Virus record (IMG/VR): IMGVR_UViG_3300012036_000010
Coordinates: 1-32,370 of that record
From: a virus
DNA length: 32,370 nucleotides
Reading direction: 5' to 3' (one strand)
Of this stretch, positions 4,303-27,100 are shown piece after piece (position 1 is the first letter of the stretch; each line of letters begins with the position of its first letter). Under the pieces are notes generated by a model. The model was not told the origin of the DNA, ran no database searches, and worked only from the letters and a program-made list of their open reading frames with translations. Both the position numbers and the translations under genes were made by a program.

Positions 4303-4346
4303 GAAAAATTACTAATAGCACGAATCATTGTTCAGAGGAATTGCTC

Positions 4347-4943: not shown

Positions 4944-4958
4944 TACAACTGGTGAAAC

Positions 4959-5564: not shown

Positions 5565-5579
5565 ACTGCGGAGATCAAT

Positions 5580-6155: not shown

Positions 6156-7170
6156 AGAGAAAGACATCAATCTGGAAGATGATGGCGACGATCCACGCAG
6201 CCCACGACGCCCATTATCCGAAGTCGGCACACCTTCCGTATCAAATAAGGAAGAAGTGAATCCAGATATTCGTGATCTCGGCAAGGACATGTCAGATGAT
6301 GACTTTCTGAATGCTCTGGCCAACGCACCAGACGAAATGCTCATCCCATGGGAAGAAGTACCACTCCCAAGCGACGGGCTCTACTACGAAGGCTGGAAAA
6401 ACGGAACCGTTAAAGTCCGAGCCATGACTCAATCGGTCGAAAAAGCCTTCTCCAACCGCCGACTTATCCAAAGCGGCGGAGCAGTCGACAAAATGTTCGA
6501 ACAATGCTCCGAAATGCCAGGAGGCACGAACCCCCAAGATCTACTCATTGGTGACCGAACATTCCTCTTATACTACATTCGAGGTCTGACATTCGGTAAT
6601 CTCTACAAATTCGTCGCGAAATGTCCTAACTGCTCGGCTGAAAACAGCCACACGTACGACATGAACGAACTGTACGGCACGGTCATTCGAGCTAATCCCA
6701 ACATCGGCAACGAACCATTCAAAGTCGTGCTGCCCCACCTCACCGCCGTTTCCGGTCGTGAAGTATATGTCGGAGTGCGATTCCTCCGCCAAACAGACAT
6801 CGCTAACATCATGGCATCCAGACGCTTTAACAAGCGGCTCGATGGCAACACGGTTCGAGCTGGTAACGTCCGAAATCGGAACCGTCGAGGTCAACGCCCC
6901 GGCCAAACAGAAGTCGCATCCCAAGCCGATCAGCTTATGGATGGTTCAGTAGAAAAGACCATTGTGTCCGTCAATGGTAATTCGGAGCCAATGTTGGTAA
7001 ACCGAATCGTGTCCCGTCTACACTCTCGGGATAATGCGGCCATCAGAGACTTCTTGATGGAAAACACCCCTGGTATTGATACTACCGTAAACGTCACATG
7101 TCAGGAGTGCAGTAATGAGGCAATGATGGAATTGCCCATTACTGACGGGTTTTTTCGAACGGCTGACTGA
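6148..7170 (+). CDS. T4 gp26-like tail/baseplate assembly protein (zero-frame product)
   Basis: This 340-residue protein has an acidic N-terminal 60 residues, then the motif LPSDGLYYEGW at about 73-83 followed by VKVRAMTQ, which is typical of the T4 gp26-like baseplate family. A zinc-type cysteine pair CPNC lies at about 159-162 and a second CQEC at 318-321, so the protein may hold a metal. The start ATG 6148 overlaps the stop of tube copy 3; an upstream in-frame ATG at 6121 would overlap more and has no better ribosome site. By position, between tube and tape measure genes, it matches the tail assembly chaperones of other phages, and an overlapping frame at its end suggests a longer frameshifted form. 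It should act during assembly in the cytoplasm rather than in the finished tail; that is inference. Confidence 0.8.
   Translation: MTKEKDINLEDDGDDPRSPRRPLSEVGTPSVSNKEEVNPDIRDLGKDMSDDDFLNALANAPDEMLIPWEEVPLPSDGLYYEGWKNGTVKVRAMTQSVEKAFSNRRLIQSGGAVDKMFEQCSEMPGGTNPQDLLIGDRTFLLYYIRGLTFGNLYKFVAKCPNCSAENSHTYDMNELYGTVIRANPNIGNEPFKVVLPHLTAVSGREVYVGVRFLRQTDIANIMASRRFNKRLDGNTVRAGNVRNRNRRGQRPGQTEVASQADQLMDGSVEKTIVSVNGNSEPMLVNRIVSRLHSRDNAAIRDFLMENTPGIDTTVNVTCQECSNEAMMELPITDGFFRTAD
7147..7158 (+). promoter_or_regulatory. candidate ribosomal frameshift site
   Basis: The zero-frame reading is GGG TTT TTT CGA. A phenylalanyl tRNA on TTT at 7153-7155 could slip one base forward onto TTC (7154-7156), a better match for its anticodon, while a slow CGA codon waits. 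The new frame then reads GAA CGG and stays open to 7348. A minus-two slip on the same run would reach the same frame. No start codon is available for that frame otherwise. Confidence 0.6.
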
Positions 7171-7357: not shown

Positions 7358-7390
7358 ATGCTGAATTATCAAACCTAATTTAGCATTTTT
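7358..7390 (+). terminator. hairpin terminator after the frameshift extension
   Basis: The arms ATGCTGAATT (7358-7367) and AATTTAGCAT (7377-7386) pair over 10 bases with one G-T pair and a 9-base loop, followed by TTTTT at 7386-7390. It ends the tube and chaperone unit and lies 14 bases before the next start. Confidence 0.75.
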
Positions 7391-8339: not shown

Positions 8340-9464
8340 ATGCGGTACAATATTCCACCTGAACGAATCGAAGCCTGGGTAAGGGCCAATTTCAAGGTCC
8401 ACAAGACCCGAAAGAATGGTGACGAACTGGTCATTATCAACCCCCTAACCGGGCACGATAAACCACGTTTGAACATCAATCTCAATGGCTCTCTGCACGA
8501 CTGGGGCGGAGACGAATGGGCGGGCGACCGCAATCCCAAAACCGGGAAACGCCCCTGCCATATAATCCGATTCGTTCAGCTATACCGCAACACGAGCTTC
8601 CGTGAGGCTCTCCGTGAACTCGTGGGAGACGCAAGCCTCTCACACGCCTATCAGTCTTCAGGTGCAACGGAAACTAAAGAAGAAGCCACGGAGACGTTTT
8701 CGATAGAGATCCCCTCCGGGTTTCGTCCTCTTAATAACCCAGACAGCCTCGCAAAACGCCCCCTCTGGAATTATCTATTATCTCGTGGCTACACCGAGCA
8801 CGAGATCCTAGAACAGAACCTCCACTTTCGAGGCTCGGATATCCTTTGGTTGTACACAGAGTTCGGCGATCTTGTGTACATGCAGAGCCGGAACATCTAT
8901 AACAAGCAGTTCTGGTTTCCTTCTACTGATGTCAGGAACGCCAAGGACGAGAAGATTGGCGAATTAGAAGTGACTCGTGATCATGTTTTGTACGGCTTCG
9001 ACGAATGTCCAAGGGCCGAGTACATCATTCTCACCGAGTCGATCTTCGATCAGAATACTCTTGGGCGGCACGCTTTGTCTTCCGGTGGGGTGATTCTAAC
9101 TGATGGTCAATTGAAACGGATTAAGTTGATAGGCCCCCGTCAGGGCGTTGTGCTTGCACCTGACAATGATAAACCGGCTATTGAGAGTGTTATGGAGAAT
9201 GGTCCGAGGCTGGCGAATATGGGGTATAAGGTATTCTTTTCGATTCCTCCGCAGCTTCCGTACATAAAGAATGGCGAGGAAGTGTTCACGAAGGATTGGA
9301 ATGAGCTTTATACGGGATTAAAATTAACGAAACCCCAGATCGTTGCAACAATGAATCAGAGGTTGGTTCCTTTCACTGAGAAGAGCCGCCTCCAGTTACG
9401 TCAAATGGTTTTTAGACAAGGCAAGGCACAGAAACATGTCCACCGCAGCTCATTCCTCTCATGA
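8340..9464 (+). CDS. TOPRIM primase-like protein
   Basis: This 374-residue protein looks like a DnaG-type phage primase without a helicase part. The TOPRIM fold is seen in residues about 225-325: the acidic strand IILTESIFDQ (Glu 233), then VVLAPDNDKPA with the D-x-D pair (Asp 275 and 277), and later FTKDWNEL (Lys 318, Asp 319). The N-terminal part has INPLTGHDKPRLNINL and SLHDWGGDEW, resembling the substrate-side domain of primases, but without a CHC2-type zinc cysteine set, which is an oddity. It would make primers for lagging-strand synthesis, or be a relative with another nucleotidyl transfer role. It lies inside the tail gene region, where replication genes are unusual. The 3' end overlaps the next gene by 29 bases. 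Confidence 0.7.
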   Translation: MRYNIPPERIEAWVRANFKVHKTRKNGDELVIINPLTGHDKPRLNINLNGSLHDWGGDEWAGDRNPKTGKRPCHIIRFVQLYRNTSFREALRELVGDASLSHAYQSSGATETKEEATETFSIEIPSGFRPLNNPDSLAKRPLWNYLLSRGYTEHEILEQNLHFRGSDILWLYTEFGDLVYMQSRNIYNKQFWFPSTDVRNAKDEKIGELEVTRDHVLYGFDECPRAEYIILTESIFDQNTLGRHALSSGGVILTDGQLKRIKLIGPRQGVVLAPDNDKPAIESVMENGPRLANMGYKVFFSIPPQLPYIKNGEEVFTKDWNELYTGLKLTKPQIVATMNQRLVPFTEKSRLQLRQMVFRQGKAQKHVHRSSFLS

Positions 9465-9852: not shown

Positions 9853-11313
9853 TCAGACAGAATCCAGTGTGCCTAATAACAATTTGTTGTGACCAGCATC
9901 CCAAATTCTTCGGAAACCATTCATAAACATGTTTTCGGCTTCGGTTTTGTTTGGATCGAATTTATCCAATTTTTCTTTGAGTTTGTGTTTTTGATACTGG
10001 ATTCTATTATAAACAGAGTTGGATTTTATGTATTGGTAGTTCGGTCTGGTTTGGTCTATTAACTTAAAACCGGATCTAATGTAACTCATACCTTGTGAAA
10101 ATCTTCTATCTGCATAGGTCATGATTGAAATGGGTTTATAGTCTGTTACAAACCTTTTAATCATTTTATCCAGACCCCCAACAATAACACAATCTCGGTC
10201 ATATGCTGTCCTGATTATTTCCCATTGATGTTTTTTGTGTGGCGATAGCGAAAAAACCGCTACCAATTTAGAAGAAAACCACATCCCATATACAATCTTA
10301 GCTGATCTATAACCATGCATGTGATTATTATTCAAAAAATCGATTGATTCTTTGTTGGAGATCTTTTTAATCACACATTTTCTAGCGAATATCCTATTAG
10401 ACATACCAATTTTCGATTTTATCATTGATATGATTAGGTCTATGTTACCAATGACTTCCTGATCGGTAAATTGCAATAACATAATATTATTTGCTGCAGC
10501 TAGATCGCATTTCGTTTTGTGTTTGTATTTCTCTTTGTGCAGTTCTGGTCTATTGTACGAATGATAGTATATCCCATTACACTCTATTCCAATATTATAG
10601 TCTGGAATTAAGATGTCTATTTCATATGGTGATATGGCTTTCCTATCCTCTGTGATTATTGATACCCCCAATTTCGAGATGGCATTTTCTAGGTCGTTTT
10701 GACATTTGCTCGCCCCACATCTTCTACATCCTACTATACCACTACAATGTGCTGAAGCAAATTGTTCGAATTTACCATGTTCTGGGCATACTATCTCTAC
10801 TTTTTTGCCTGAGCCAGTATATTTTGATATAGAATAGTCATATTCATTTTTCTGAGATTGTCTCGATTTTTCAATAAATTCTTCTCTTGAGGCTACTAAT
10901 TGATCTTTGATACTTATTCGAGCACATTTGGGGCAATTACCTGGTTTGTTCTTAGAAAAATGTCTAGATGGCAATACTTCGAAATCACCATGTAATTTAC
11001 ATGTTATTGTTATTTTGGTTTTGGAATCAACATATGTTGATTTGCTGTAATCATATCTGCTTCCATGTTTTTCTTTAGATTTTTCTAAGAAGTTGCTTAA
11101 AGACTTTTGGTGATGTTTGTCAGCAATGCTTTTTCCGCATTTTTGGCATCCATATTTAGATTGAAGATGTATACCCGCTTTTTGTTCAAATTTGCCGTGT
11201 TTTGGACAAATTATCAAGACTGTGGATCGCAATGTTTGACAATCGACCAGTGAATAATCGAATTTGTCTCCATGTCTTTTTCTAGCTCTTTCAATGAATT
11301 GTTGATTATTCAT
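9853..11313 (-). CDS. free-standing homing endonuclease with three zinc-finger repeats and a Vsr-like nuclease domain
   Basis: This 486-residue protein has three N-terminal repeats of the type seen in phage homing nucleases: each has a hGxxYDYS-like start, a C-x-x-H-G-x-F segment and a C-x-x-C pair (Cys 36/His 39/Cys 56/59; 105/108/127/130; 176/179/196/199). A nuclease part follows, with ENAISKLG at 210, YEIDILIP at 230-237 and IGIECNGIYYHS at 241-252, which resembles the Vsr or very short patch repair fold. The remaining 200 residues are probably for DNA recognition. It is much more AT-rich than its neighbours, lies on the opposite strand and has gaps of about 40 and 58 bases on its sides, all signs of a selfish insertion. 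Flanking genes appear whole, so it sits between genes, not within an intron. Confidence 0.88.
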   Translation of the reverse strand: MNNQQFIERARKRHGDKFDYSLVDCQTLRSTVLIICPKHGKFEQKAGIHLQSKYGCQKCGKSIADKHHQKSLSNFLEKSKEKHGSRYDYSKSTYVDSKTKITITCKLHGDFEVLPSRHFSKNKPGNCPKCARISIKDQLVASREEFIEKSRQSQKNEYDYSISKYTGSGKKVEIVCPEHGKFEQFASAHCSGIVGCRRCGASKCQNDLENAISKLGVSIITEDRKAISPYEIDILIPDYNIGIECNGIYYHSYNRPELHKEKYKHKTKCDLAAANNIMLLQFTDQEVIGNIDLIISMIKSKIGMSNRIFARKCVIKKISNKESIDFLNNNHMHGYRSAKIVYGMWFSSKLVAVFSLSPHKKHQWEIIRTAYDRDCVIVGGLDKMIKRFVTDYKPISIMTYADRRFSQGMSYIRSGFKLIDQTRPNYQYIKSNSVYNRIQYQKHKLKEKLDKFDPNKTEAENMFMNGFRRIWDAGHNKLLLGTLDSV

Positions 11314-11371: not shown

Positions 11372-14300
11372 ATGGCATTTGATCCCAACCTATATGCAAT
11401 ACAAATAGCTCTTTCTATTGACTCTGGTGAGGCTTTTAAAGCTGTAGATGAGTTAGAAAGTAGAATTGGTGGTATTGAAGAGTCTCTGTCTCGTGCCCTC
11501 ACTCAGACTCTTTCTGGTGTGGTCGATGTGACGTCAGAGATTAGCCAATCTCTGGGTGCCATGACAGGCATTATTGATGATCAGAATCAACGGTACGTCG
11601 ATCAATTTGATCAATTAGGCGAGACTCTTGAACGAAATACTGAGGCTACCGATGAGATTCAGAAACAGTTCGATCTGAACGAAGATCTGCAAGAGATTCG
11701 AAAAGAAATGTTCGAGTTGGATGAAGAACGCCAACTTTTACAACAATTGGCTCTTGAGACGATTGCCAGTGAACAATTCTCCGCTCAAGAATTAGACGAT
11801 ATTTATCAGGCCATGGGTCTCACGCTTGAGGAGATTGATGAGTTACATGAGCGTCATGGCGATAATATCGACAGAAATACTACTGGGTCTAGAAGGTATC
11901 GCACCGAATTTCAAGAATTGCTTAGGACTATAGATCAAGTGTCTGATGCGATGTTCGCCAATGCAAATGCATTGGGGAACATGACCAAACAAGCTGAAGA
12001 CTTTGTAACAGCCAATTTCCGAGCATATGGAACTCAACACGATCTCTTGAATGCTGTTGCTCAGACTTCAGCTGAATATGGGGTGTTCACAGAACAAACT
12101 CAGGAAGCTTATAAAGAATTGATGGGAATTAAAGTCCCCATTCAACTTCTTGATGAGTATGCTGGAATGGTCGCTCAAACGTCTCGGATCACTGGGGTCA
12201 GTATTAAGGGCCTAGCAGAGTACACCCGCACGATGCGTGGGGCTGGTCTTGAGCTTGGTGATTTGGCATATGTCATGAATGTTACCACCGCTGCCCAGGA
12301 AGCTTTTGGCTTGACTGCCGCAGAAGTCAACAAGGTCTTGACAGAACAGCTCGATAAGCTTTCTTTGATGACGTCGATTTATGGTAACGAGGTCCCGGCT
12401 GATATGGCTGTGGCTCAATCGATGTTCGCAGGGCTAGCGAAACAGGCGGGAGCCACAGCCGAAGCTATCAGCAAGATCAATGAGATAATGTATGCCACAG
12501 GTTCCGAGGCTTTGGTACTTAATGGCAAATTGGGGCCGACATTCGGGGAGGGCACAGAAGGAAGAGCACAAGCTATCACTGATACTTTCAGCAAAATGGG
12601 CATGGAGCTTTATAATGCTCAGCAAAGTAGTGAGATGACCAGGGCTGAGCTTGATATGTTGACTATTCGATTGGGTGCTAAGGCTAAGGCCCTGGGTGGT
12701 AACATTGATATGGTAACATTCTACCGTAATCTGATTAAAGAGAGCGGCGGTACTATTGAAGGCATGACTGCCGCTATGGAGAATATGCGTGCTGAACATG
12801 TAAGAATACAAGATGAGCAAGCAGCATTCAATGACTCGATGAATACTCTTTATGCTTCAATTCAAGCATTAAATGCTTCGATATGGGCTTTGGTTTCACC
12901 TTTCGTGAATTTCATTGCTCAAGGCATGATCCCGATCATTAGTACAGCCGCCTTCTTGATTGATACGATCGGCAATGTTATTGGTATCTTTACCGGTCTT
13001 TGGGCAGCTTTAGAGGATCTAATCCCACCACTTTATTATGTGCGAATGGCTGCTGCCACCCTTGTTGCAGCATTCATTTTAATCCCGCCAATATTAACTG
13101 GGATTATCGGACTAATGAGCGTTGGAGCCAACGTATTCAATATATTCGGTGCTTCTATCGCTTTTGTGCAGACCAGAATGGCCGGGTTCTTCGCAAGAGC
13201 GTCAGTCGGATTAGCACAACTTGGCACAATGTTCATCTCGTTCATGACAACGCTCGGTGCCGGTCTTAATGCCCTAGGAATGGCTATAGCACCTGTCATG
13301 CTTCCGTTATTAGCATTAAGCGGAGCACTCTTATTAACGGCTACTGCTGCTTACGTGTTCGCTCAAGCGACCGCAATAATCGCTGAACAAGGATGGGCCG
13401 CTGCAGCCGCTATGGCTGGTATAGTCGTGTCAGTAGGATTACTAGGATTAGTCTTGGTCGGTCTTGCAACACTTGCCCAAGGCCCGATTGCATTGGGACT
13501 ATTGGCTATTAGTGTTGCTCTTCTAGCTGTTGGTGCCGCAGCTTACATGGTCGGAGCTGGTATCAATCTCGCGGCTACTGGAATGGCCACACTATTGAAT
13601 GCTATTCCCCCTGATATCGGGGCTCGATTCTTACAATTAGCAGCCGGACTCACGGCTCTATCATTAGTCGCCTATTTTGTCACACCCGGTTTACTATTAT
13701 TGGGGTACGGCTTGGCTGCTATTGCCTTACCAGCCTTCATGGCTGGCTATGGAATTCAATCTTTGGTAACTGGGCTACAAGCTTTGGCTGAGATCGAACT
13801 ACCCGATCTCGGGGGCAAACTGCTACTACTAGCAATTGAAATAGCAGCAGGGGCTTTGATTCTTAGTGCTGTGATGACCCCATTGGCCTTGGCTGGTGTT
13901 GGTCTGTACTTGTTTGCTACTGGACTTCAACAATTGTCTGGCTTTGAGGTTCCTGATCTTGGTGGTAAGTTGATTGCTATGGCTGGTGAACTCTGGGTTG
14001 GTGCTATTATTTTGGGTGCTGTGATGACCCCATTGGCTTTGGCTGGTGTTGGTCTGTACTTGTTCGCTACTGGGCTTCAGCAATTGTCTGGCTTCGAAGC
14101 TCCTGATCTTGGCGGTAAGTTGATTGCTTTGGCTGGTGAACTCTGGGTTGGTGCTATTATTTTGGGTGCTGTGATGACCCCATTGATGGTGGCTGGTGCT
14201 GCTATTTGGGTTTTCGCTAAAGGTTTGGAATCTCTGAGTGGTATTGAGATTGCCGGATTCGGTGGAAAATTAATTGATCTTGCTCTAGAGATGGCACTTG

Positions 14301-15073
14301 CTGCTGCGTTGATCTTGCCCGCTGCTGCCGTCTTGGCCATGTCTGCCCCGGCATTAATTGCTGCTGGTGCTTCGCTTGCTATTGGTGGCGGTGCAATGTT
14401 AATAGGCGCTATAGCACTTGGTTTCAGCACGAGTATGTTGAGTCGGGCCATTGAGAGTCTGGCTGGATCTAGTGAGATATTAGTTGGCTTTACTGCTGCG
14501 GCTGAAAGGTTCGCTGCTTTGAATTTTTCGGCTTTGAATAGTAGTGTTGTGCAGTTGGGCAATGTGTCTACTAATATGGTTAGTCACATTGATAGACTGG
14601 TGACTGCGGCTGTAAGAATGGAGAACACTCAAATTGATGCGAAAAACTTTGCTGATAGTCTTACAACTGCTGCTTCACAATTGGATGATGCGGCTAAATC
14701 ATTGCAAGGCCCTGCTGCCACTTTGACTACTGAGATTGACGGTATTGTTCAACAGGTTGAACGGTTGATAGCCGCTGAAGCTCAGATTAAGGAAATCGGT
14801 AACGATATTGCTGAGGTAATTCAACAGCCAGCCGATAATACTCAACAGCCTAATGAGATGCGTAATGTTGAGCGAGTCAATGAAGCGTTGAATGCTATGG
14901 TTGAAGTTAAACAAGACAATGGAGAAATGGTTGCTCTACTTGCCCGTCTCGTTGAACTTATGGAAGCTGAAGCTGAAGCTGAAGGTCGTAAAGACCGTGA
15001 GGGCTTCTTCCAGAATGAAGGTGGTAGTCAACCTAAAGGTGATAAATTTAAGGAAGCGGGGATCGACTTATGA
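11372..15073 (+). CDS. tail tape measure protein
   Basis: At 1233 residues this is the second-longest protein in the window. Residues about 30-170 are charged and helical (ESRIGGIEESLSRALTQTLS), residues 200-480 are a helical and Ala/Gly-rich domain, and residues about 510-1030 are a long run of hydrophobic helices with many Ala, Gly, Leu and Ile, typical of tape measure proteins whose length fixes tail length. The last 200 residues return to charged helices (QQVERLIAAEAQIKEI) and end in a polar tail. Within the hydrophobic part a 50-residue unit is repeated (residues 833-982). The ATG at 11372 follows GAGAAACG; the stop overlaps the next start in ATGA. Position after tube and chaperone genes supports the call. 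Confidence 0.9.
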   Translation: MAFDPNLYAIQIALSIDSGEAFKAVDELESRIGGIEESLSRALTQTLSGVVDVTSEISQSLGAMTGIIDDQNQRYVDQFDQLGETLERNTEATDEIQKQFDLNEDLQEIRKEMFELDEERQLLQQLALETIASEQFSAQELDDIYQAMGLTLEEIDELHERHGDNIDRNTTGSRRYRTEFQELLRTIDQVSDAMFANANALGNMTKQAEDFVTANFRAYGTQHDLLNAVAQTSAEYGVFTEQTQEAYKELMGIKVPIQLLDEYAGMVAQTSRITGVSIKGLAEYTRTMRGAGLELGDLAYVMNVTTAAQEAFGLTAAEVNKVLTEQLDKLSLMTSIYGNEVPADMAVAQSMFAGLAKQAGATAEAISKINEIMYATGSEALVLNGKLGPTFGEGTEGRAQAITDTFSKMGMELYNAQQSSEMTRAELDMLTIRLGAKAKALGGNIDMVTFYRNLIKESGGTIEGMTAAMENMRAEHVRIQDEQAAFNDSMNTLYASIQALNASIWALVSPFVNFIAQGMIPIISTAAFLIDTIGNVIGIFTGLWAALEDLIPPLYYVRMAAATLVAAFILIPPILTGIIGLMSVGANVFNIFGASIAFVQTRMAGFFARASVGLAQLGTMFISFMTTLGAGLNALGMAIAPVMLPLLALSGALLLTATAAYVFAQATAIIAEQGWAAAAAMAGIVVSVGLLGLVLVGLATLAQGPIALGLLAISVALLAVGAAAYMVGAGINLAATGMATLLNAIPPDIGARFLQLAAGLTALSLVAYFVTPGLLLLGYGLAAIALPAFMAGYGIQSLVTGLQALAEIELPDLGGKLLLLAIEIAAGALILSAVMTPLALAGVGLYLFATGLQQLSGFEVPDLGGKLIAMAGELWVGAIILGAVMTPLALAGVGLYLFATGLQQLSGFEAPDLGGKLIALAGELWVGAIILGAVMTPLMVAGAAIWVFAKGLESLSGIEIAGFGGKLIDLALEMALAAALILPAAAVLAMSAPALIAAGASLAIGGGAMLIGAIALGFSTSMLSRAIESLAGSSEILVGFTAAAERFAALNFSALNSSVVQLGNVSTNMVSHIDRLVTAAVRMENTQIDAKNFADSLTTAASQLDDAAKSLQGPAATLTTEIDGIVQQVERLIAAEAQIKEIGNDIAEVIQQPADNTQQPNEMRNVERVNEALNAMVEVKQDNGEMVALLARLVELMEAEAEAEGRKDREGFFQNEGGSQPKGDKFKEAGIDL
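13868..14317 (+). repeat. 150-base direct repeats inside the tape measure gene
   Basis: Units begin at 13868, 14018 and 14168 with GCTGTGATGACCCCATTG. The first two are nearly identical over their whole 150 bases; the third keeps the start and then diverges. A more diverged protein-level copy precedes the first (LPDLGGKL matching VPDLGGKL). Each unit codes for 50 residues, so copy changes would lengthen or shorten the tape in steps without frame loss. Confidence 0.9.
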
Positions 15074-15672
15074 GCAGCCGTTATTTAATCACAAAAGATA
15101 GCGAGATAATTGAAGACGTTCAATTATTCTTAGCATATCGTAGTCAACAGGTCGAATTTCAGTTTCCGCCAACGATCGAGAATGATTCAAGGCGTGTCAA
15201 CTGGAAAACCGATAATATTCCAGGCCGTGATCCAATTGCGGTTTATGAGAGCAACTCTGCTCGTGAGTTGACTTTGAAAATCGAGTATATCGTCGAAGAC
15301 CCGAGTGTTGAGAACAATGGGCAGATCTGGAGCATTGGTAAAATCAAGCAGCAGATTAATCTATTGAAAGGTTATTTCACTGGTGTGGTTGGTGCTCCGG
15401 CTAGAGAAGGTGGCAGTTTTGTGGCTGCTGGCTCTATGACAGCATACTTTTGGCATACTCGGATAACCGGTACTAGTGGTTGGAGTGTTCGTATTGGCAA
15501 TGTTAGCACATCATATAAAGGCCCGCAAATTGGTGGGGGTGGTGACAGTCATCCATTGAAGACCACTTTGAATGTGGATATTGCAACTGTGAGTTTTGGT
15601 ACGCCGGAAAATCCTGAGGCATATTGGGATGGTTTGAAGCCCTTCCCAGAATACGAGGACTTGTGGTTCTAA
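15070..15672 (+). CDS. tail tube/baseplate junction protein candidate
   Basis: This 200-residue protein follows the tape measure gene with an ATGA overlap. Its first half contains VEFQFPPTIENDSRRVNWKT and a segment NIPGRDPIAVYESNSARELT leading to a strand-rich LKIEYIVED, a pattern found in baseplate hub adaptor proteins that carry a tube-like domain, such as the LysM-type proteins coded next to the tape measure in many contractile tails. A clear LysM motif is not visible. It probably joins tube to baseplate; T4 gp48 or gp54 would be the functional counterpart. The match is by pattern and position only. Confidence 0.6.
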   Translation: MSSRYLITKDSEIIEDVQLFLAYRSQQVEFQFPPTIENDSRRVNWKTDNIPGRDPIAVYESNSARELTLKIEYIVEDPSVENNGQIWSIGKIKQQINLLKGYFTGVVGAPAREGGSFVAAGSMTAYFWHTRITGTSGWSVRIGNVSTSYKGPQIGGGGDSHPLKTTLNVDIATVSFGTPENPEAYWDGLKPFPEYEDLWF

Positions 15673-15673
15673 A

Positions 15674-15991
15674 ATGACAAGATATGATAACGCCGAAGAC
15701 GTCTATTACAGAGGGTCCGAAACCAAGGCCCGTCTTCGCAACTACTCTTGGCTGCGAGTCCGACCTATCGACTCAGATATTGGCGCTTTTAAAGTGACCA
15801 CTCAGACTGCCGGATCGCCTCGTCGCATAGCTCAACAGATTTATGGTGATCATCGCCTTTTTTGGGTTTTAGCATTATTTAACTCGCGATGGTACAGCGA
15901 TGCTAGAGCCACATCTGTATTGAATTGGCCCGTAGCTGGCCAGATTCTATATTATCCTAGACGATATGTCATCAATCCAACGTTGACTTAA
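15674..15991 (+). CDS. baseplate wedge protein (T4 gp53-like)
   Basis: This 105-residue protein has the features of the gp53/LysM-like wedge family: SPRRIAQQIYGDHRLFWVLA, an alternation of Ile-Ala, Tyr-Gly and Trp, then Leu and Asn (LFNSR), and a late WPVAGQILYYPRRYV, where Gly and Pro mark the end of the fold. In T4, gp53 staples neighbouring wedges together. The gene begins one base after the preceding stop and its own TAA overlaps the stop of the reverse-strand hub gene in TTAA (15988-15991). Confidence 0.8.
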   Translation: MTRYDNAEDVYYRGSETKARLRNYSWLRVRPIDSDIGAFKVTTQTAGSPRRIAQQIYGDHRLFWVLALFNSRWYSDARATSVLNWPVAGQILYYPRRYVINPTLT

Positions 15992-17316
15992 TTCCGAGGT
16001 TTTTGGCCGACTTCTTGACCCTTAGCATTTAAATCCATTTTGCTTAGTTGCATCTTTGTTGTCCAATTGTTTTCATGCCAAGTGTGTTCGAATCCGTAGA
16101 CGAGCCAATTACCGGCTAGAAAATAACTTCTGGAACCACCTTTGAAATTGTTACGCCAATCGACGTAGACATTGTCAGCACCCATTCCAATCGTGCTGTC
16201 CCATATACCATGCCCTTTTATGGTTAGATCCATTGTGAATAGTTTATACACGCCTCGCATGTACTCAGTTCTGGCGTAGGCATCGAAATATTTGAGGTAT
16301 GGGAAATCAATTTCTCCGCCACTATAGTATTCTGGCGGAGAATCAACAAATGATCGACCGAACCGACCTTTTTTGAACGTCTCTTTCTCGGGTCTGATTG
16401 TTGATCGTAATGCTCCGCTCTTCGGTTGATACGGAACGTATTTCCCACCAGTGTTGCTATCAGTGATTATAGCTTCCTTAGGGCGATTTGTTTGATCGTA
16501 AACCTGACCCAGAGTCGCAGTTACGCCAGCTGTGACAAGGCCCATTTCATGATGACCTAGACTTGGGTTTAGAACTGCCTCCCATCTTAGCATGTCACCA
16601 TTACCGTTTTCATCCATCTTGCGGTAGTAGCCTAGTTCTCTCGGTTGGAATGTGCTCAGTGGGCCTACCTTGACTTCATTGTTGTGGACGCCAATTACCC
16701 AAGGTGTTCTTGAATCATCTAAAGATGATGCTAAATGGATTAGATGAGATAGCATGTCTCGTGGCGATCTTCTCATCATCCACCAAACGTTGTTTTTCGA
16801 ATCATTGGTATCTGGTATCGTTATTTGAGCGTCAGGCATATAACGATTGATGACTTTTCTGATGACTTGGCTCACGTTTCCTTCGAAAGCCCCGCCGTAT
16901 GCGTCTCCAATTCGAAGATAATAGTTCAGAGGGTCTATGGCTATGAATTCTGTGTAATCGATCTCAGCCTGACCATGAGGATAAACCGTGGTAATATACC
17001 CAAATATATCCCTAGTCGCAGCTTTTGGATAACCCTGCGGTCCAGGCTCGTATCTGATTTTGACTTTGACTGGTACGGGATTGGATCGAACTTGAGACAT
17101 GAATCTTTTATTGCCTGCACCACCTTCAAATAAAGCATCAAGGATTGCGAAGTTGGGGTTTTTCAATTGGATTCTTATCGCATATCCATTGTTTATGAAT
17201 GCCTTGATTTTCAATTCTTTTACATAATCCCCAAGATTACGATTGTCAATCGAAGGCATGAAGACATCGACTGCGGCTCTCTGACCTACAATTGGTTTTA
17301 ATTCAGCGTTGGACAT
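15988..17316 (-). CDS. baseplate hub protein (T4 gp27/gpD-like), on the minus strand
   Basis: This 442-residue protein looks like a tail hub protein that links tube and spike. The middle has VSQVIRKVINRYMPDAQITI followed by NNVWWMMRRSPRDMLSHLIH, close to the segment of T4 gp27-like hubs in which DAQI is followed by WWMM. The end, NWLVYGFEHTWHENNWTTKM, matches the typical closing strand pair of hub domains. It is coded against all neighbouring tail genes. The start CAT (17314-17316) directly abuts the ATG of the next plus gene, and the stop overlaps the gp53-like stop in TTAA. There is no room for a promoter, which must lie within the plus-strand genes around it, and no strong ribosome site is seen. 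Confidence 0.85.
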   Translation of the reverse strand: MSNAELKPIVGQRAAVDVFMPSIDNRNLGDYVKELKIKAFINNGYAIRIQLKNPNFAILDALFEGGAGNKRFMSQVRSNPVPVKVKIRYEPGPQGYPKAATRDIFGYITTVYPHGQAEIDYTEFIAIDPLNYYLRIGDAYGGAFEGNVSQVIRKVINRYMPDAQITIPDTNDSKNNVWWMMRRSPRDMLSHLIHLASSLDDSRTPWVIGVHNNEVKVGPLSTFQPRELGYYRKMDENGNGDMLRWEAVLNPSLGHHEMGLVTAGVTATLGQVYDQTNRPKEAIITDSNTGGKYVPYQPKSGALRSTIRPEKETFKKGRFGRSFVDSPPEYYSGGEIDFPYLKYFDAYARTEYMRGVYKLFTMDLTIKGHGIWDSTIGMGADNVYVDWRNNFKGGSRSYFLAGNWLVYGFEHTWHENNWTTKMQLSKMDLNAKGQEVGQKPRN

Positions 17317-17580
17317 ATGATAGCAATCGTAAAGTACAAAGAACGGGCAAGAGTCGTTTTTATTTTAGGTCAAGAGGGAAGTAAAGTGTATGCTCTGGCA
17401 AGCGAAAGAATTCCAGAGCCCCTTGCATCCCCATTATCTAAAATTCTCTATGAAACCGAAGATTTAGGATACAGGATCGGCATTCTGAAAGAACAGTTCC
17501 CCACGATATATAAGTTAGCCCTGCGTGTGTTTGACTCCAAACAACTAAAGATCATTGAGAAATATGAAAAGCCGAGATAA
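17317..17580 (+). CDS. small protein of unknown function
   Basis: This 87-residue protein starts at ATG 17317, the base right after the start codon of the reverse hub gene, so CATATG holds both starts. It begins with a strand-rich MIAIVKYKERARVVFIL and ends helical (LALRVFDSKQLKIIEKYEK). It overlaps the spike gene by 17 bases and may be needed with it. A role as spike or hub partner is only a guess from position. I do not recognise the family. Confidence 0.65.
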   Translation: MIAIVKYKERARVVFILGQEGSKVYALASERIPEPLASPLSKILYETEDLGYRIGILKEQFPTIYKLALRVFDSKQLKIIEKYEKPR

Positions 17581-19798
17581 AGTAGTCGAACAGAATTGGG
17601 AAAACGTTCTTAATCGCCCGCCTCTACAATCGCTCAAACGTAGCGGAATCTACCGGGCTAAAGTGATCGAAACCAACGATCCACTTAACATGAACCGGCT
17701 CAGGGTCAAAGTACCCGAACTCCACGACGACGGCATGCCAGCTGAATATGCACCATGGGCATGCCCAGCCCCAAGCATAGGCGGACGTGGAGCATTCTTC
17801 TTCGTATCCGCCACAATCGGTGATTGGGTCTGGATACAATTCGAAAAAGAAGACCCCCATACGCCCGTCTACACAGGATTCGCAAATCCAACAAGACGCG
17901 GTGCTTATTCAATCCAACAAATCCACATCGAAACCCAACCAGTCCTTGACGAAAACGGAAACGAAAACAGACGACGAGTAGGCGATTTCGACTCCCGCTA
18001 CCTACCAAAAGACGGACGCCCCATGAAAACGGGCTACGTCGACACCTACGGCAACTCGGATATGTCCAGTGCCGTAGGCTACTTCCCAATCGAACACCAA
18101 GAAGCCCCAGCACCAGCTGATCTTGGGACTAATTCATCCACATCAATCACTCGCCGACGAAGCCCTCCACAGGTCAACAACCCTGATCTCAAGTACATGT
18201 TGCGAATGACCAAATACGGCCATCTGCAACTCATGAGTGATCAAGGATATTATTGGAAAAAAGAAGAACAAGGTATAACTGACTCAAGGAGGCAGGAACT
18301 TGGAGAATTTACAGGCGACCGAGATCTAGACTACGCTTACGAGGCCAAGCGATGGTTGGCTATTCAACGTTTGATCTCTGAAGACGATCCAACCAGCAAA
18401 GACCGACGACGTCAGCTCTTCATGACTCGATATGGTCACGTCTTCGATATGAGAGACGTTGGGTGGGGGCAGTTAGGGCCGATCGCTTCGAAATCACGAT
18501 CTGGCGAATATGGCCCAAGACGCTACGTCAGCGACGAAGAAAAACGTGATCAGCGTTTCATGCGAATGCGTACGAAAGGCGGCATGTACTTCATCATGGG
18601 TGACAGAGGATTCCACCCCGAAGAAGACAAATACGTCAAACGTCGCCTATACGATGACTTAAGGCTACAAGACCAAGAACTTGAGCGACATTGGGGTGGA
18701 ACCAAAGACGCCCGTTTTATGGGGTTCATCTCTCGTTACGGTTGGAAGTTCATCCTCGACGATCGCGGAAGTGACGCAAGGAACGCCGACAAACGCGACC
18801 GCCCTCGTGGGCAGGGTATTTTGCTTAAGGGCCGAAGAAGACCAGGGACGGGCACGGACGAGGAAACGAATGCTCTAGGCAAGCAGCGTGGATTCTGGCT
18901 TCAGGTCGTAGAACGTGATGCCTTGAACCATATGCAGATGGGAAGCCCGATGGGTCATTCTATCGAGATGAGTGATAAGTATCAATACTTGATGATGGCG
19001 TCTACTTTAGGTCGTCGCTGGGGTAGTGAATGGAAAGGATTCAGGAGACATGAATACAATCCTCGCACCATGATGCAGAGGAACCCCGAAAAGAATTCTC
19101 ACCATTTGAAGCTTGATCATGCTAACGAGTATATTAGGCTAAAGACTCGTGGTGGTCGTGGTCCGCAGCCAATCGGTAATGTTGTCGAGAAAGGCGTTGG
19201 TAAGAGAGAAATACAGCAAGGTTTCGAAGCTAGGGACGGCAAAGAGGGCGATGGGCCTTGGGTCGAGCTTGTTGATGCTCAGCGTCGTGGTATTTGGATG
19301 AGCAAGAGCCAACAGCTTCTGATTTTGCGTGGTAAGAAGCGTAAGAGGCTTTATATCTGGTTGAATGATGCTCCTAATCGGGAGATTGTGATCTTCAATG
19401 GTGAAAGAAATGGGAAAGTTAAGATCTACACCCAGGGTAGTATTGAGCTTAAGGCTGCGAAGGATATTACTCTTGATGCTGGGCGGTTGTTGAATCTGCG
19501 TGGTCGCCGGGTTCAAATGCAGGCTGATGCTGGTGCGAAGATGACTCTTGCGAGTAACATTTTCACTAATTGCAGAATAAGTGGTGCGGAATTCCGTGGG
19601 TTCTTCCGTGGTGTATTCCCTGGTCCTGGTGCTGGATTCCCAGTTACTTCTGGCACTGTTTCTGTCGAGCCTTTGGAACCTCCGACTCGTCCAGAGAAGA
19701 TCGAGCCATCCGATCGGGGCCAAACGTATAATGGGCCTTATGAGGGAATTGATCCATCTGAATTCAACCCTCAAATTGATGATAGTACCGAGAACTGA
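17564..19798 (+). CDS. baseplate spike protein (gp5/VgrG-like), no lysozyme domain seen
   Basis: This 744-residue protein begins with an OB-fold of the gp5/gpV type at about residues 28-108 (IYRAKVIETNDPLNMNRLRV, then IGDWVWIQFEKEDPHTPVYT). The middle (about 200-480) has repeated segments of the form RMTKYGHLQLMSDQGY, MTRYGHVFDMRD, MRTKGGMYFIMGDRGF and SRYGWKFILDDRG. The late part (about 590-670) has IELKAAKDITLDAGRLLNLR and VQMQADAGAKMTLAS, the pattern of the triple beta-helix spike. A Pro/Glu-rich tail follows. Unlike T4 gp5, I see no lysozyme motif. I chose ATG 17564, 9 bases after a TTG in the same frame. It pierces the host envelope on contraction. Confidence 0.85.
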   Translation: MKSRDKVVEQNWENVLNRPPLQSLKRSGIYRAKVIETNDPLNMNRLRVKVPELHDDGMPAEYAPWACPAPSIGGRGAFFFVSATIGDWVWIQFEKEDPHTPVYTGFANPTRRGAYSIQQIHIETQPVLDENGNENRRRVGDFDSRYLPKDGRPMKTGYVDTYGNSDMSSAVGYFPIEHQEAPAPADLGTNSSTSITRRRSPPQVNNPDLKYMLRMTKYGHLQLMSDQGYYWKKEEQGITDSRRQELGEFTGDRDLDYAYEAKRWLAIQRLISEDDPTSKDRRRQLFMTRYGHVFDMRDVGWGQLGPIASKSRSGEYGPRRYVSDEEKRDQRFMRMRTKGGMYFIMGDRGFHPEEDKYVKRRLYDDLRLQDQELERHWGGTKDARFMGFISRYGWKFILDDRGSDARNADKRDRPRGQGILLKGRRRPGTGTDEETNALGKQRGFWLQVVERDALNHMQMGSPMGHSIEMSDKYQYLMMASTLGRRWGSEWKGFRRHEYNPRTMMQRNPEKNSHHLKLDHANEYIRLKTRGGRGPQPIGNVVEKGVGKREIQQGFEARDGKEGDGPWVELVDAQRRGIWMSKSQQLLILRGKKRKRLYIWLNDAPNREIVIFNGERNGKVKIYTQGSIELKAAKDITLDAGRLLNLRGRRVQMQADAGAKMTLASNIFTNCRISGAEFRGFFRGVFPGPGAGFPVTSGTVSVEPLEPPTRPEKIEPSDRGQTYNGPYEGIDPSEFNPQIDDSTEN

Positions 19799-20872: not shown

Positions 20873-22474
20873 ATGACAACAGAAATCAACATCCCAACTG
20901 AACCACGAAGTTTCGCTGTTGAGTTGCCCTCTTCTAATCTGAGACAACTAGACTTTTCAGCATTAGACTACGACACCGCTCGGCAATCCCTTATCGAGTA
21001 CGTCCGGACCTACTACCCAGATGACTTCAATGATTTCGTAGCCAGCAATGGTTTCGTCATATTGATGGATATCATAGCTGCGTTGACTGACAAATTGTCA
21101 CTACGTACTGATTTAATGGCTAATGAGGCATTCTTACCAACAGCTGTGACTGAAGAGGCCGTTGAAAATCACTTGCAATTGATTGGTCAACGGATTCGTC
21201 GTCAAACTCCCGCCACAGTCGAAATGGAAGTCACGGTCGACCGTCCAGTATTCACTGATGTACTAATTCCGCCTGGATCATTGGTTTCTACCATTGGACC
21301 AGATGGATCTGAGCTGTTCTACGAAGTTTATAAGGGACCGGGTGATTGGACCAGTAATATTGTCATCCCAGCCGGTAAGCGTGGTGTTGTGGCCTGGGGC
21401 GTGCAAGGTCAATTTGTCGCTGAATTCAATGAGGTCGCTCTAGGCGGGCCTAACCAGCGATACGATCTATTTGACGATAGCATCCTGCCTGATCCAATTT
21501 ATGTTGAGGTCACTTATGGTGGTGTCACTAGAAATTGGCGGGTAATTCAAGAACCGATTCAGATTTATGGCCCGCAAGATGAGGTCGTCGAGATTCAATT
21601 CTTTACCACTATTGAAGGCCAACCCGTTGCTCGTTTCATTTTCGGAGATGATTTCAACGGCAAAGCACCAATTTCGGGTTCTGAGATCGTTATCAGGTAT
21701 CGGACCGGTGGCGGGACAGCTGGACGGATAGCAGCTGGTGCTATCGATCAGCCCCGTACTATCCGTCTGGACGGGAGATCGTTCTCCGTGAACTTTAGGA
21801 ACATTTCACCTAGCGTCGGGGGTACGAACCGCGAAAGTGTCGCGGACGCTAAACGGAGAGCCCCTAGCACATATGCTTTACATTCTGTTGTGGTGACAGC
21901 AAATGATTATGCTCATTTCGCCAATAGCTTCAGTCATCCGGTTTATGGTGAGATTGGTAAGTCTGCTGTGATTTTGGAGACTTCTCCCAACAAGAACATC
22001 GTTGATCTTTATGTCCTTGCTGCTGGTAATGATGGTTTACCGATTTCGGCAACCGTCCAATTGAAAGAAGCTCTCGTCAGTTCGTTGTCTAGTTTGAATG
22101 TTGTGACTGATGAGATTCGGATTAAGGATGGTATAATCCATGCTATTGATCTTGAGATGATTGTCGTGTTGGATCGGAATGTTGATGGTCGGATTGTCCA
22201 AAATAAAGTCAATGATGCTTTGACTGGGTTTTTTGCATTGGATAATTTCGATCTTGGAGAACCATTGTATATTTCTAATTTGATAGAGACGATTGAGCAG
22301 ATCGGAGGCGTGAGGTACATAGATTTAAAGTCACCCAATAAGAACATCATCGCTAGTGGCAGACTTGCAGATGGCGATCCCAACTTCATTGGGGTTAATG
22401 AGATCATCACTCTTGGTACCAGCAAAGTTGACTTTTTCTACGACAACATCGCTCCTGGGAATGCTGTGCTATGA
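20873..22474 (+). CDS. baseplate wedge protein (T4 gp6/baseplate J-like)
   Basis: This 533-residue protein forms the wedge ring with gp25 and gp53. Its N-terminal part has LDYDTARQSLIEYVRTYYPD and LMDIIAALTDKLSLRTDLMA, a segment typical of gp6 and J proteins, followed by EAFLPTAVTEEAVENHLQLI. The middle is strand-rich (RFIFGDDFNGKAP, then VIRYRTGGG), and the last third repeats the family order of SVVVTANDYAHFANSFSHPV and an insertion-like domain with LVSSLSSLNVVTDEI. It starts one base after the gp25-like stop. Its stop overlaps the cupin start in ATGA. Confidence 0.9.
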   Translation: MTTEINIPTEPRSFAVELPSSNLRQLDFSALDYDTARQSLIEYVRTYYPDDFNDFVASNGFVILMDIIAALTDKLSLRTDLMANEAFLPTAVTEEAVENHLQLIGQRIRRQTPATVEMEVTVDRPVFTDVLIPPGSLVSTIGPDGSELFYEVYKGPGDWTSNIVIPAGKRGVVAWGVQGQFVAEFNEVALGGPNQRYDLFDDSILPDPIYVEVTYGGVTRNWRVIQEPIQIYGPQDEVVEIQFFTTIEGQPVARFIFGDDFNGKAPISGSEIVIRYRTGGGTAGRIAAGAIDQPRTIRLDGRSFSVNFRNISPSVGGTNRESVADAKRRAPSTYALHSVVVTANDYAHFANSFSHPVYGEIGKSAVILETSPNKNIVDLYVLAAGNDGLPISATVQLKEALVSSLSSLNVVTDEIRIKDGIIHAIDLEMIVVLDRNVDGRIVQNKVNDALTGFFALDNFDLGEPLYISNLIETIEQIGGVRYIDLKSPNKNIIASGRLADGDPNFIGVNEIITLGTSKVDFFYDNIAPGNAVL

Positions 22475-22830
22475 ACGATCCGCTAGATTATCAAGTCAAG
22501 AACTGGGGCAAATCGGCATATCTCGGTTCTTACAATGGTGTGATGGTCTGGCAGGGATTTATAGTGAAGGGCGATGGCGATGGTAAATGTAGTGTGCATC
22601 ATCATGCACGTGATTACAATGAGATTATAGTAATCTCGGGAAAGATTCGGATCAATCATTTCCACGAAGATGATTTAATTAATCCTGATCGCTTTGTGGA
22701 TCTTGTCTCCGGTGAGCGTGCCACCATTCATCCTGGTGTAATTCATCAGTTTCAAGTTTTAGAGGACGGAGTCATAATGGAATTGTATTGGTCCAAACCC
22801 GTCTTTGATATAGTGCGACACAATGTCTGA
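22471..22830 (+). CDS. small cupin-domain protein
   Basis: This 119-residue protein is a single cupin. Motif 1 is SVHHHARDYNEIIVISG (residues 41-57) with three His (43-45) and Glu 51, and motif 2 is GERATIHPGVIHQF with Pro 88, Gly 89 and His 92, so the metal ligands are present. Small cupins of this kind bind a divalent metal and work on sugars or as oxygenases or sensors; the substrate is unknown. It overlaps the gp6-like gene by 4 bases and the next gene by 8, so it is made along with the baseplate. It could also be a virion part with a metal-binding fold. Confidence 0.8.
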   Translation: MNDPLDYQVKNWGKSAYLGSYNGVMVWQGFIVKGDGDGKCSVHHHARDYNEIIVISGKIRINHFHEDDLINPDRFVDLVSGERATIHPGVIHQFQVLEDGVIMELYWSKPVFDIVRHNV

Positions 22831-23191
22831 AAAATCAGTTATACTCTGGAATGTTCATTTCGATCAAGATAAATTCAGTTATACTTATAACAACTTCGAA
22901 AAGCTCATCCAGGCCGTTGATACTTTCGCTGATCTACAAATCAGCGATGGTATAGCTAATAAAGATGAGGCTATTGAGAAAGTCTCATCTAATGTTAAAG
23001 AGCATTTACAATTGGACGAAGCTGAAGGGATGTACGTCATTATGATCGGTGACGCACAGGTTCAAATCAAGAAAATCATTCTTGATGAACAGAATCCAGT
23101 GGTTAAGGCTTTGATCGCGGCGTATCCGCAAGTGAATAAGAAGACCAAGAAATCAATTGATCTTCTTATTTCGGAACCTCTATCTTCTTAA
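22823..23191 (+). CDS. small protein of unknown function
   Basis: This 122-residue protein starts with MSEKSVILWNVHFDQDKFSY and then has mixed helix and strand (VIMIGDAQVQIKKIILDE). It overlaps the cupin stop by 8 bases, and its TAA overlaps the stop of the next reverse gene in TTAA (23188-23191). The sequence is acidic with a Lys-rich late part (PQVNKKTKKS). No family is recognised. Confidence 0.65.
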   Translation: MSEKSVILWNVHFDQDKFSYTYNNFEKLIQAVDTFADLQISDGIANKDEAIEKVSSNVKEHLQLDEAEGMYVIMIGDAQVQIKKIILDEQNPVVKALIAAYPQVNKKTKKSIDLLISEPLSS

Positions 23192-23481
23192 CGCTCAGTA
23201 TCGAGTTCGGCTAGTAGTTGTTGTTTCATCTGCCGAGTGAATTGAGCCCCCAATGCTGCAGTATCATAGGGGTGTCCCTGTGTGAATACAATGGGGGTAT
23301 CGCCATCGTGGGGTTTGATGATGATAACAGCATCGCATTCGCCCGGAACGTTCTCCTTGATCGTGGTCATTAGTTCGACCATTCGCTCATCAAAGGTGTT
23401 TTCTGGTTGATTCGCTTCGTGTTGTTCTATCTTAGAAGCGAAATTTTCGTCAATCGGCTCTTGGGACGCATTATCTGACAT
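23188..23481 (-). CDS. small protein of unknown function, on the minus strand
   Basis: This 97-residue acidic protein (MSDNASQEPIDENFASKIEQ, then CDAVIIIKPHDGDTPIVF) lies between plus-strand genes. The stop overlaps the stop of the preceding gene, and the start codon overlaps the start codon of the following gene in CATG (23479-23482). This is the same edge-to-edge fit as the hub gene. No room is left for a promoter except inside the gene at 23480. No strong ribosome site is visible, so translation may be weak. Function unknown. Confidence 0.6.
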   Translation of the reverse strand: MSDNASQEPIDENFASKIEQHEANQPENTFDERMVELMTTIKENVPGECDAVIIIKPHDGDTPIVFTQGHPYDTAALGAQFTRQMKQQLLAELDTER

Positions 23482-24119: not shown

Positions 24120-27100
24120 ATGTCCGGTCTTTTGTCAGATCCCAATTTTCACAGTAACGACACAGTACACAATTCAACCCGCATAGTAAGGAACGTAGTA
24201 GACAGCTACGGATTCACAGCGGGGCCAGACGAGGAATTCGGCCTCAACGACTCATTCCTCAACGGATTCAAGGGACGAGACCCTGAATTTGGATACAACG
24301 GACTAGGCGAAGTCACCTATTATCGCACCTATTCAAGGCTGAAAGAAAACGGCGGCAAAGAACACTTCTGGGAAACAATCAATCGAGTCGTCGACGGAAC
24401 ATTCGAAATCCAACGCCGACACTGCCACCGATTCAACCTCCCATGGGACAGGATGCGAGCACAAGACTCAGCACAAGAAATGTTCCAACGCATCTGGGAC
24501 TTCAAATTCGTCCCGCCCGGACGCGGCCTTTGGGTCATGGGCACACCATTCATGTGGCGAGCAGGCGGAGCAGGATTAAATAATTGTTTCGCACACGAGA
24601 CAGAATTTATCACAAGAGAAGGGATCAAAAAGCTTGGCGATTGCGTCAACACCACACAAAAGATTTTGACTTCTGGTGGCAAATGGGTCGATGCGAAAAT
24701 CAAAAGCTTTGGAGAACAACAACTTACTAAAGTTGTGCTCCGTCGTGGTCGATGGCGTAAAGTTATTCATGCCACTCCAGATCACCGTTGGTTTGTTCAT
24801 TCTAAATCACGAAAATTCGCCACAGTTGGTGCTGCCGATGATTCGAATAATACTTGTACTCGTGAATGTACCACTGAAGAGTTGAAAGATGGTCTTCGGT
24901 TGTCAATGAATTTTGGTCAAGGAATTAATAATTCCAATTTACGACCAAGTGCGTTTGGTATCGCTCATGGTGTCTGTTTCGGCGATGGCACAACCGGATC
25001 GGATAATGAAAGTCATGGAACATATTTGTATTTATGCAAACCCAAAGACGCACAGCTAGAAAGGTTTTTCCTTGCGTCCCATCGCACTGAAGCCCCAGAA
25101 AGGGGTGAACACGGTGCGATACGTGTTGCTGATCTCCCGAGAGCTTTTAGAAGGGCTCCAGATTTAAACGAATCGTTGACTTACCTTTACGGTTTCTTGT
25201 GCGGATATTTTGCAGCTGATGGAGACGTCACCGACAAGGGGACTGTCAGAATTGCATCATCTGAACGGCAAAATTTGGAACTTGTTCAATCTGTTTGTGC
25301 TATTCTTGGAATTGGGACGTTCGAGATCTCACAAGGTCTGCAGACAATCAAAAAAGATGGACAAGTTAAGAAATTTATTGGATATCGTCTTACTTTGATG
25401 GCCGAGTACCTTAATCCAGAATTTTTCTTGATCGATGATCATCGTGAAAGATTCGAAATTCGAATTAGTGCAAGTCGGAAGAAGATCTCCACATATCAGT
25501 CATGGTATGTCGATTCTGTGGAATCCACTTGTAGAACAGAAGAAGTCTTTTGTCCTCAAGTTCCTGAAACTTATTGTTTCACATTGGCTGGTAATATTCT
25601 TACTGGTAACTGCGGATTCGTCAGCACGAACCAAGACTTCCACGAAGACCCGGCCCAACCCTTTGCTTTCGCAATGGACATGCTCATGTTGGGCGTCGGC
25701 ATCGGATTTGACACAAAGGGAGCCGACGTAGTAATGGTTCGCAAACCCGTCGACAGACGAACCAAATACATCATCGACGACAGCCGAGAAGGATGGGTCT
25801 TGGCATTCATCGATCTGGTGCACTCCTACACACTACATCCCGAGTACGGCAGATTCACCTACGACTTCAGTGAAATCCGACCCAACGGAACACCTATTAA
25901 AGGATTCGGCGGCGAAGCATCAGGCCCCGGTGAACTCGAAAAACTATTGTTCCGTGTCGATGATTTCTTCGGCAAAATGGTCGGTCGACGCATGAACAGC
26001 GTTGATATTACCGATCTGATGAACATGGTCGGCAAATGCGTCGTCGCGGGTAACGTCCGACGAAGTGCTGAGATCGCATTTGGTTTCCCTGGCGATATTG
26101 AATATCGCTCGATGAAGAACCCCGTTCGAGATCTGAGCGGCGAAGAAACCGAGAAATTCTACAAGGTCACTGGCGACCTTTATGGCAAAAACCGTTACTC
26201 AGCGACCGTTGAAGACTTCACTGGATGCGATATCCAGAGCGATAAGCTCGATAGAGCAATTGACGTCTGGAACGCTTGCAACGATCGTCGCTGGGCTTCA
26301 AACAATTCAGTGTTCAGCGAAATCGGCATGGACTACACTGACGTTGGCCAGCAAACAGCTGCTAACGGCGAACCCGGTTACATCTGGCTTGATAACATGC
26401 GGGATTATGGCCGCATGAAAGACGGTTTTCAGCCTGGGATTGATGGTCGTGTGATGGGGAGCAACCCATGCTTTGCTGGTTCTGGAAATTTGTTTACAGA
26501 TTCTGGTTACAAAAACATTGAGAATTTGTGGAAAGAACAAGGAGCATTGTTGTTTGATGGTTTTGATGCCGACATGCTAGATAAATATGGTAGCCAATCT
26601 ATTATTAATAACAATGGAATTTCTAAAGCCACTAAAATTTATAAAACTGGTGACAACCAAGAAGTTTTTAGAGTTAAATTCAATGATGGTTCATGGATTG
26701 ATGCCACAGAAACTCATGAATTTATAGTTCTTAATCGTACTGTGCGTAGAATTGGTGGCGGGAAAAAGAAAACGTTTTTTGATGAGCAGCGATGCAAATT
26801 GGCCAATTTGCAAATTGGTCAATTGATACCTTTAAATCAGCAAGTTCATTTCGGCACATTTCATGATCCTGTTTATTCTGAGCTTTCTGGATGGTGTATT
26901 GGCGATGGGTCTTTAAGCCCACGATCATCTGGCCAAACAAGAGCAGAATGTACTGTTTATGATGAAGATTCTGTTGATGTTTTGCCACGTTTGCGTGGAT
27001 TGATGTTACAATTGTTTGAAACTCATAGTAAATCTAAAAATGTTCAGCCAGAGTATGCCGGTTGGGAAAGAGATTTTTCGGGTTCTTCATTTGATCATCA

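Follow-up and report, generated by a model that had tools for sequence, protein, structure and literature searches.

In the viral stretch analyzed here (hereafter the window, 32,370 nucleotides in total), a baseplate hub gene of the gp27/VgrG type is located back to front inside a plus-strand baseplate operon. Comparison with relatives indicates that this reversed arrangement is real, old and inherited. According to the reading that we favor, and which we consider fairly likely, the hub gene and a small partner gene, SML, form a travelling head-to-head pair, and the promoter or promoters of the hub would be embedded antisense in the coding sequence of SML.

The hub gene (15988–17316, minus strand; 442 aa, ATG start) is supported by the list of open reading frames, by the fold of its product and by its relatives. 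Its position on the minus strand inside plus-strand baseplate genes, as originally predicted, is confirmed, and the gp53-, gp25- and gp6-like wedge genes, the OB-domain spike and the tape measure around it are all on the plus strand. The hub gene converges with the gp53-like baseplate wedge gene (15674–15991, plus; PHROG 7145, E 3e-7, with PF11246 slightly under the cut-off), and the two stop codons share the four nucleotides TTAA (15988–15991), exactly as claimed. On the other side, it lies head-to-head with SML (17317–17580, plus; about 90 aa), and the claimed contact of the divergent start codons in CATATG (17314–17319) was also found, with CAT at 17314–17316 and ATG at 17317. Downstream of SML is the spike gene with its OB domain (17555–19798, plus; PHROG 430 and PF04717, Phage_base_V), for which an alternative start at ATG 17564 is possible. 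Upstream of the gp53-like gene are g15070 (15070–15672, plus), a conserved gene of the baseplate operon judging from the gene order of relatives, and the tape-measure gene (11372–15073, plus; PHROG 4372); a primase-like gene (8340–9464, plus; PHROG 47) borders the slot usually occupied by the hub in relatives. Four-nucleotide overlaps of convergent stops are also present in L064, L066 and L071 and, in the relative G004, of which 400 kb were read, 14 out of 76 convergent pairs show them; since they are common in this group, the hub/gp53 stop junction taken alone is ordinary. A long N-terminal extension of the hub into SML was ruled out by an in-frame stop 51 nt before the hub ATG of the window, and such a stop is present at most 51 nt upstream of the hub start in 23 of 25 close-packed loci.

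The name gp27-like was originally a guess. Searches of the hub protein sequence against PHROGs, Pfam and the PDB gave no match, and none of 30 relatives is assigned to a hub family by the sequence libraries. An AlphaFold model built from a 30-row alignment (pLDDT 78.6, pTM 0.83) matched T4 gp27 (1wth_D) in a fold search with Z 20.9 over 330 residues and the hub-spike of a contractile injection system (7aef_q) with Z 23.9; VgrG and gp27 hubs match the model across almost the whole chain, so that the guess was right by fold. The genomic context agrees, with the PF04717 spike (17555–19798) and relatives of gp53, gp25 and gp6 close by. On the basis of the modelled fold and of this context, the product of the gene is a gp27/VgrG-type baseplate hub. 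From the structural point of view, the SML model is small and beta-barrel-like; the protein belongs to no known family and fold searches gave no confident match, the best viral hit (E 2.7e-3) being unnamed and below confidence. Hub and SML are two conserved protein families that the searched sequence libraries miss. Their profiles found no significant match in Atu_ph07, LR756511 or T4.

The window is a virus record that is probably metagenomic, which speaks for considering an assembly artefact or a misjoined contig. The layout recurs, however, in a second contig from another IMG/VR record (L001/L004, 99.66% identity over 8 kb), where it is identical, and in diverged relatives from other samples: L014/L064 (66% aa identity) keep both junctions, with the 4-nt stop overlap and CATATG, while L011/L066 (31% aa identity, on a 408-kb contig) keep the 4-nt stop overlap and have CATG at the starts. 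An assembly artefact is therefore refuted, and we regard it as exceedingly improbable. The original prediction had named plus-strand relatives together with signs of assembly error as evidence against itself; relatives with a co-oriented hub do exist, and no sign of an assembly error was seen. The virus group consists mostly of very large members, several of them on contigs of more than 300 kb.

Gene order was compared in 64 loci, including the window, which were collected by profile scans and comprise some near-copies (e.g., L071 and L073). Hub and tape-measure gene point the same way in 50 loci, and the hub is reversed in 14, so that the view that hubs are normally co-oriented holds both in this group and in T4 (51>27>28>29). 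SML is the 5′ neighbor of known family of the hub in nearly all 64 loci, and in 44 of them the two genes are head-to-head. In most relatives the pair is placed directly upstream of the tape-measure gene, and four arrangements can be distinguished. In arrangement A (16 loci) SML, hub and tape measure follow one another in tandem; in B (31 loci) SML diverges from a co-oriented hub followed by the tape measure, and it is SML, not the hub, that opposes the operon direction; in C (7 loci) the pair is inverted in the place it has in B; in D (7 loci, window included) the inverted pair is found between the gp53-like gene and the spike gene. In the remaining 3 of 64 loci the hub is co-oriented and no SML was recognised. 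Start codons overlapping by two bases in CATG are found in 23 loci spread across B, C and D, which indicates that the head-to-head pair was inverted and moved as a unit. The comparison of gene order proposed with the original prediction thus points to the movement of a two-gene cassette, not of the hub alone, and the hub is back to front in the tail operon because hub and SML moved and flipped together.

In a tree built from the spike, gp53, g15070, gp25 and gp6 proteins, the window and L064 fall together with loci of arrangement B, and the remaining D loci with those of C. With groups named after the tree had been seen, the AU test rejected D as a single clade (p-AU 0.0015) and did not reject a single clade of all inverted loci, C plus D (p 0.09). 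As the tree has no known root, the direction of the change of arrangement is not established. Only short, chance-like inverted repeats were found at the cassette borders. A scan of genome contigs returned no relative, and a literature search for a reversed hub gene found nothing specific. In the window, the position upstream of the tape measure where relatives have the SML/hub pair is taken by an HNH/DUF723-type endonuclease gene (9853–11313, minus) in a stretch of about 34% GC. This gene is missing there in L064/L014, where the pair is relocated identically, and it was consequently rejected as the cause of the relocation. A second reversed gene (23188–23481, minus; 97 aa, no family) is tightly flanked by plus-strand genes, with which it shares 4 nt at the stops and 2 nt at the starts, and it is conserved in L064–L073, L009, L010 and L015.

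Since the hub has no spacer in front of it, any promoter of its own must be within SML or farther off. Codon constraint was scored column by column against codon usage in 25 close-packed head-to-head loci, and two constrained runs emerged in SML, namely NTA-CTA (z 5.2 and 5.6) and TTA-TCT-TTG (z 7.4, 9.8 and 6.3). No such run is present in the SML of spaced or tandem loci, and none comparable was found when about 4,200 columns from ten further genes of the genomes with close-packed loci were scored; there, the best sum of three z values was 14.1 against 22.6 in SML. Among the tested genes of the close-packed clade, this second-highest clustered synonymous constraint, with its sum of 14.1, belongs to a phrog_150-type gene (6121–7170 in the window), in which a further embedded element might be concealed. 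On the hub strand, the SML runs correspond to TAGTANATA, at about −52 to −58 from the hub ATG, and to CAAAGATA, at about −165 to −174. The form CAAA[AGT]ATA occurs on the hub strand in 16 of the 25 close-packed loci, against 1.1 expected under synonymous recoding, and TAGTANATA in 10 of 25 against 0.7. Neither is found in the SML of tandem and spaced control loci, and both are absent from the SML of L083, where SML and hub are 843 nt apart.

In two long relatives, motifs of which CAAAGATA and TAGTANATA are variants are over-represented ahead of genes. CAAANNTA is enriched there in the sense orientation, with 30 copies against 5.2 (17 antisense) in the first relative and 9 against 0.5 (2 antisense) in the second, mostly 25–50 nt ahead of gene starts; GTAAATA is likewise sense-enriched in both. 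Moreover, the spaced loci L101, L102 and L104 carry GTA[AGT]ATATA 47–59 nt ahead of the hub. The element near −170 is farther from the hub start codon than most copies of the motif elsewhere (25–50 nt). As the motif tests were post hoc and the loci share ancestry, p-values are to be read as indicative; a first consensus test (GTAAATATA, best mismatch) gave a weak signal (p 0.03), the column-wise test being the informative one, and de novo motif EM returned diffuse motifs only. Other candidates were discarded: the enrichment of a Bacteroidetes-type TAnnTTTG promoter in SML orientation was stronger in the opposite, hub orientation, clustered codon constraint that might betray a hidden plus-strand element was not found in the hub, and sigma-70-like matches were at chance level. 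In the simplest interpretation of the constrained elements, hub promoters are probably embedded antisense in SML.

The claim that the junctions leave no room for a promoter is not borne out in this form, because promoter-like elements are found in close-packed relatives within the neighboring gene, antisense to it: absence of intergenic space is not absence of a promoter. As regards evidence for a promoter belonging to the hub itself, the strong elements are those of the CATG relatives, and the window has a degenerate candidate. The window and L064 contain no exact copy of the elements and no excess codon conservation at that place; they have instead one-mismatch variants, CTAAAATA in the window (17361–17368, minus; about 50 nt ahead of the hub ATG, a low-confidence candidate) and CTAAGATA at the same place in L064. 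The embedded elements would act as promoters, and the existence of a counterpart in the window is inferred from the relatives only. Elsewhere in the window, promoter-like sequences are found on the plus strand upstream of the sheath gene (CAAAATTA, about 755–762) and of gene 7404 (CAAACCTA, 7370–7377), both with a counterpart in G005, and upstream of the tape-measure gene (GTAAATATA, about 11321).

The mechanism that we propose is as follows. Hub and SML travel as a head-to-head pair which, in the lineage of the window, is found between the gp53-like gene and the spike gene with its hub reversed. Transcription of the hub would start from its own promoter or promoters, antisense within the SML coding sequence, and the 5′ part of the hub mRNA would be antisense to that of the SML mRNA; with promoters so placed, the 5′ ends of both mRNAs probably overlap. 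Plus-strand transcripts coming from upstream and reaching SML and the spike gene would pass antisense through the hub. It had been claimed that the two strands must be transcribed across each other, and this is correct in that transcripts of the two strands necessarily overlap, unless each of them stops precisely at a junction. Such overlap is a consequence of how the genes are arranged; regulation is not.

The favored reading has to be weighed against others, a serious one being compaction without regulation, which we rate slightly above even. The pair would have been reversed by chance recombination, with tight junctions arising under selection for genome compactness and no regulatory role for the overlapping transcription. 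The 408-kb relative has 152 strand switches among 592 called genes as well as common 4-nt convergent overlaps, the reversed gene at 23188–23481 is tightly packed too, and embedded promoters are compatible with such a history, being merely a way to express the hub. The persistence of CATG over three arrangements and down to about 30% protein identity exceeds what it needs, but may be simple inheritance. The constraint in SML might also reflect an RNA structure, a regulator-binding site or a replication signal, as it acts on DNA or RNA rather than on protein and the promoters are only predicted; however, the elements match motifs sense-enriched upstream of genes, occur in the hub orientation only and are missing where SML and hub are in tandem or far apart, which makes this explanation improbable.

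The original prediction went further and proposed that overlapping RNAs of hub and operon limit or time hub production. The gene layout fits, noncontiguous operons have been reported in phages (PMC7154746, PMC11087260), and the embedded elements in relatives imply a 5′–5′ mRNA overlap. Nevertheless, the hub is co-oriented in 50 of 64 relatives, and in tandem with SML in 16, so that the hub does not generally require it; we consider such antisense coupling doubtful. Equally tentative, and rather unlikely in our judgment, is the idea that SML/hub is a selected regulatory unit in which overlapping starts and embedded promoters couple hub synthesis to that of SML. If this were true, the 5′–5′ overlap would hold down the supply of hub or match it to the spike, and the whole unit could flip or move in the baseplate operon with its coupling retained.

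Among known systems, the T4 hub cluster (25, 26 / 51, 27, 28, 29) resembles the loci described here in its gp27-fold hub, in the position of the hub beside the tape-measure gene (compare arrangements A and B) and in a switch of strand, with divergent genes, inside the hub region. Unlike in the window, gene 27 of T4 is co-oriented with 28 and 29, in tandem after 51, and genes 26 and 51 diverge with a spacer, their starts not overlapping. The T4-type late promoter is likewise short, AT-rich and placed some tens of nt ahead of genes; its sequence is TATAAATA, while the motifs here are CAAANNTA and GTAAATA, and it was dismissed as a candidate since TATAAATA is absent from both strands of the window. 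A gp55-type late sigma factor (phrog_234, phrog_12791) had no match in six related records, possibly fragments, while the T4 positive control matched; a phage RNA polymerase beta subunit (PF00562) had none in seven related records that include fragments. Should the embedded elements prove to be promoters, the 5′ ends of the mRNAs of hub and SML would overlap, as in an excludon. Among described architectures, the noncontiguous operon comes closest, the likeness being one of gene layout alone. Examples are menE-menC-MW1733-ytkD-MW1731 of S. aureus and ith-1/tha-1 of phage 80alpha (PMC7154746, PMC11087260). There, as here, an opposite-strand gene is found between the genes of one operon, with little room for a terminator; in the window this agrees with the gene order, from which the flanking genes are also presumed to form one operon. 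Here, by contrast, the gene on the opposite strand encodes a virion structural protein, and it moved together with SML, to which it is head-to-head.

In these loci, a two-gene cassette carries a structural gene from one strand and place to another, and promoters probably lie hidden antisense in coding sequence. Phage tail modules are usually regarded as rigid, one-direction operons. If this is confirmed, a virion-assembly module would offer a case of antisense-overlapping transcription that is testable from sequence, and neither the direction of operons nor the gaps between genes would be a good guide to transcription units in large phages.

Other features of the window and its relatives are worth recording. 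A B12-dependent ribonucleotide reductase gene (24120–28571, plus) is interrupted by an intein-like sequence with intein splicing and two LAGLIDADG stretches, and the homologous reading frame is much shorter in L009 and L011. Three tandem tail-tube paralogues (4341–6155, plus) follow an unusually long tail sheath gene (957 aa). A cysteine-dioxygenase-like gene (22471–22830, plus; PHROG 7851) lies inside the baseplate operon, its counterpart in L065 being on the other strand. Finally, 14 tRNA genes are clustered in the 408-kb relative (L136; G004, 60001–80000).
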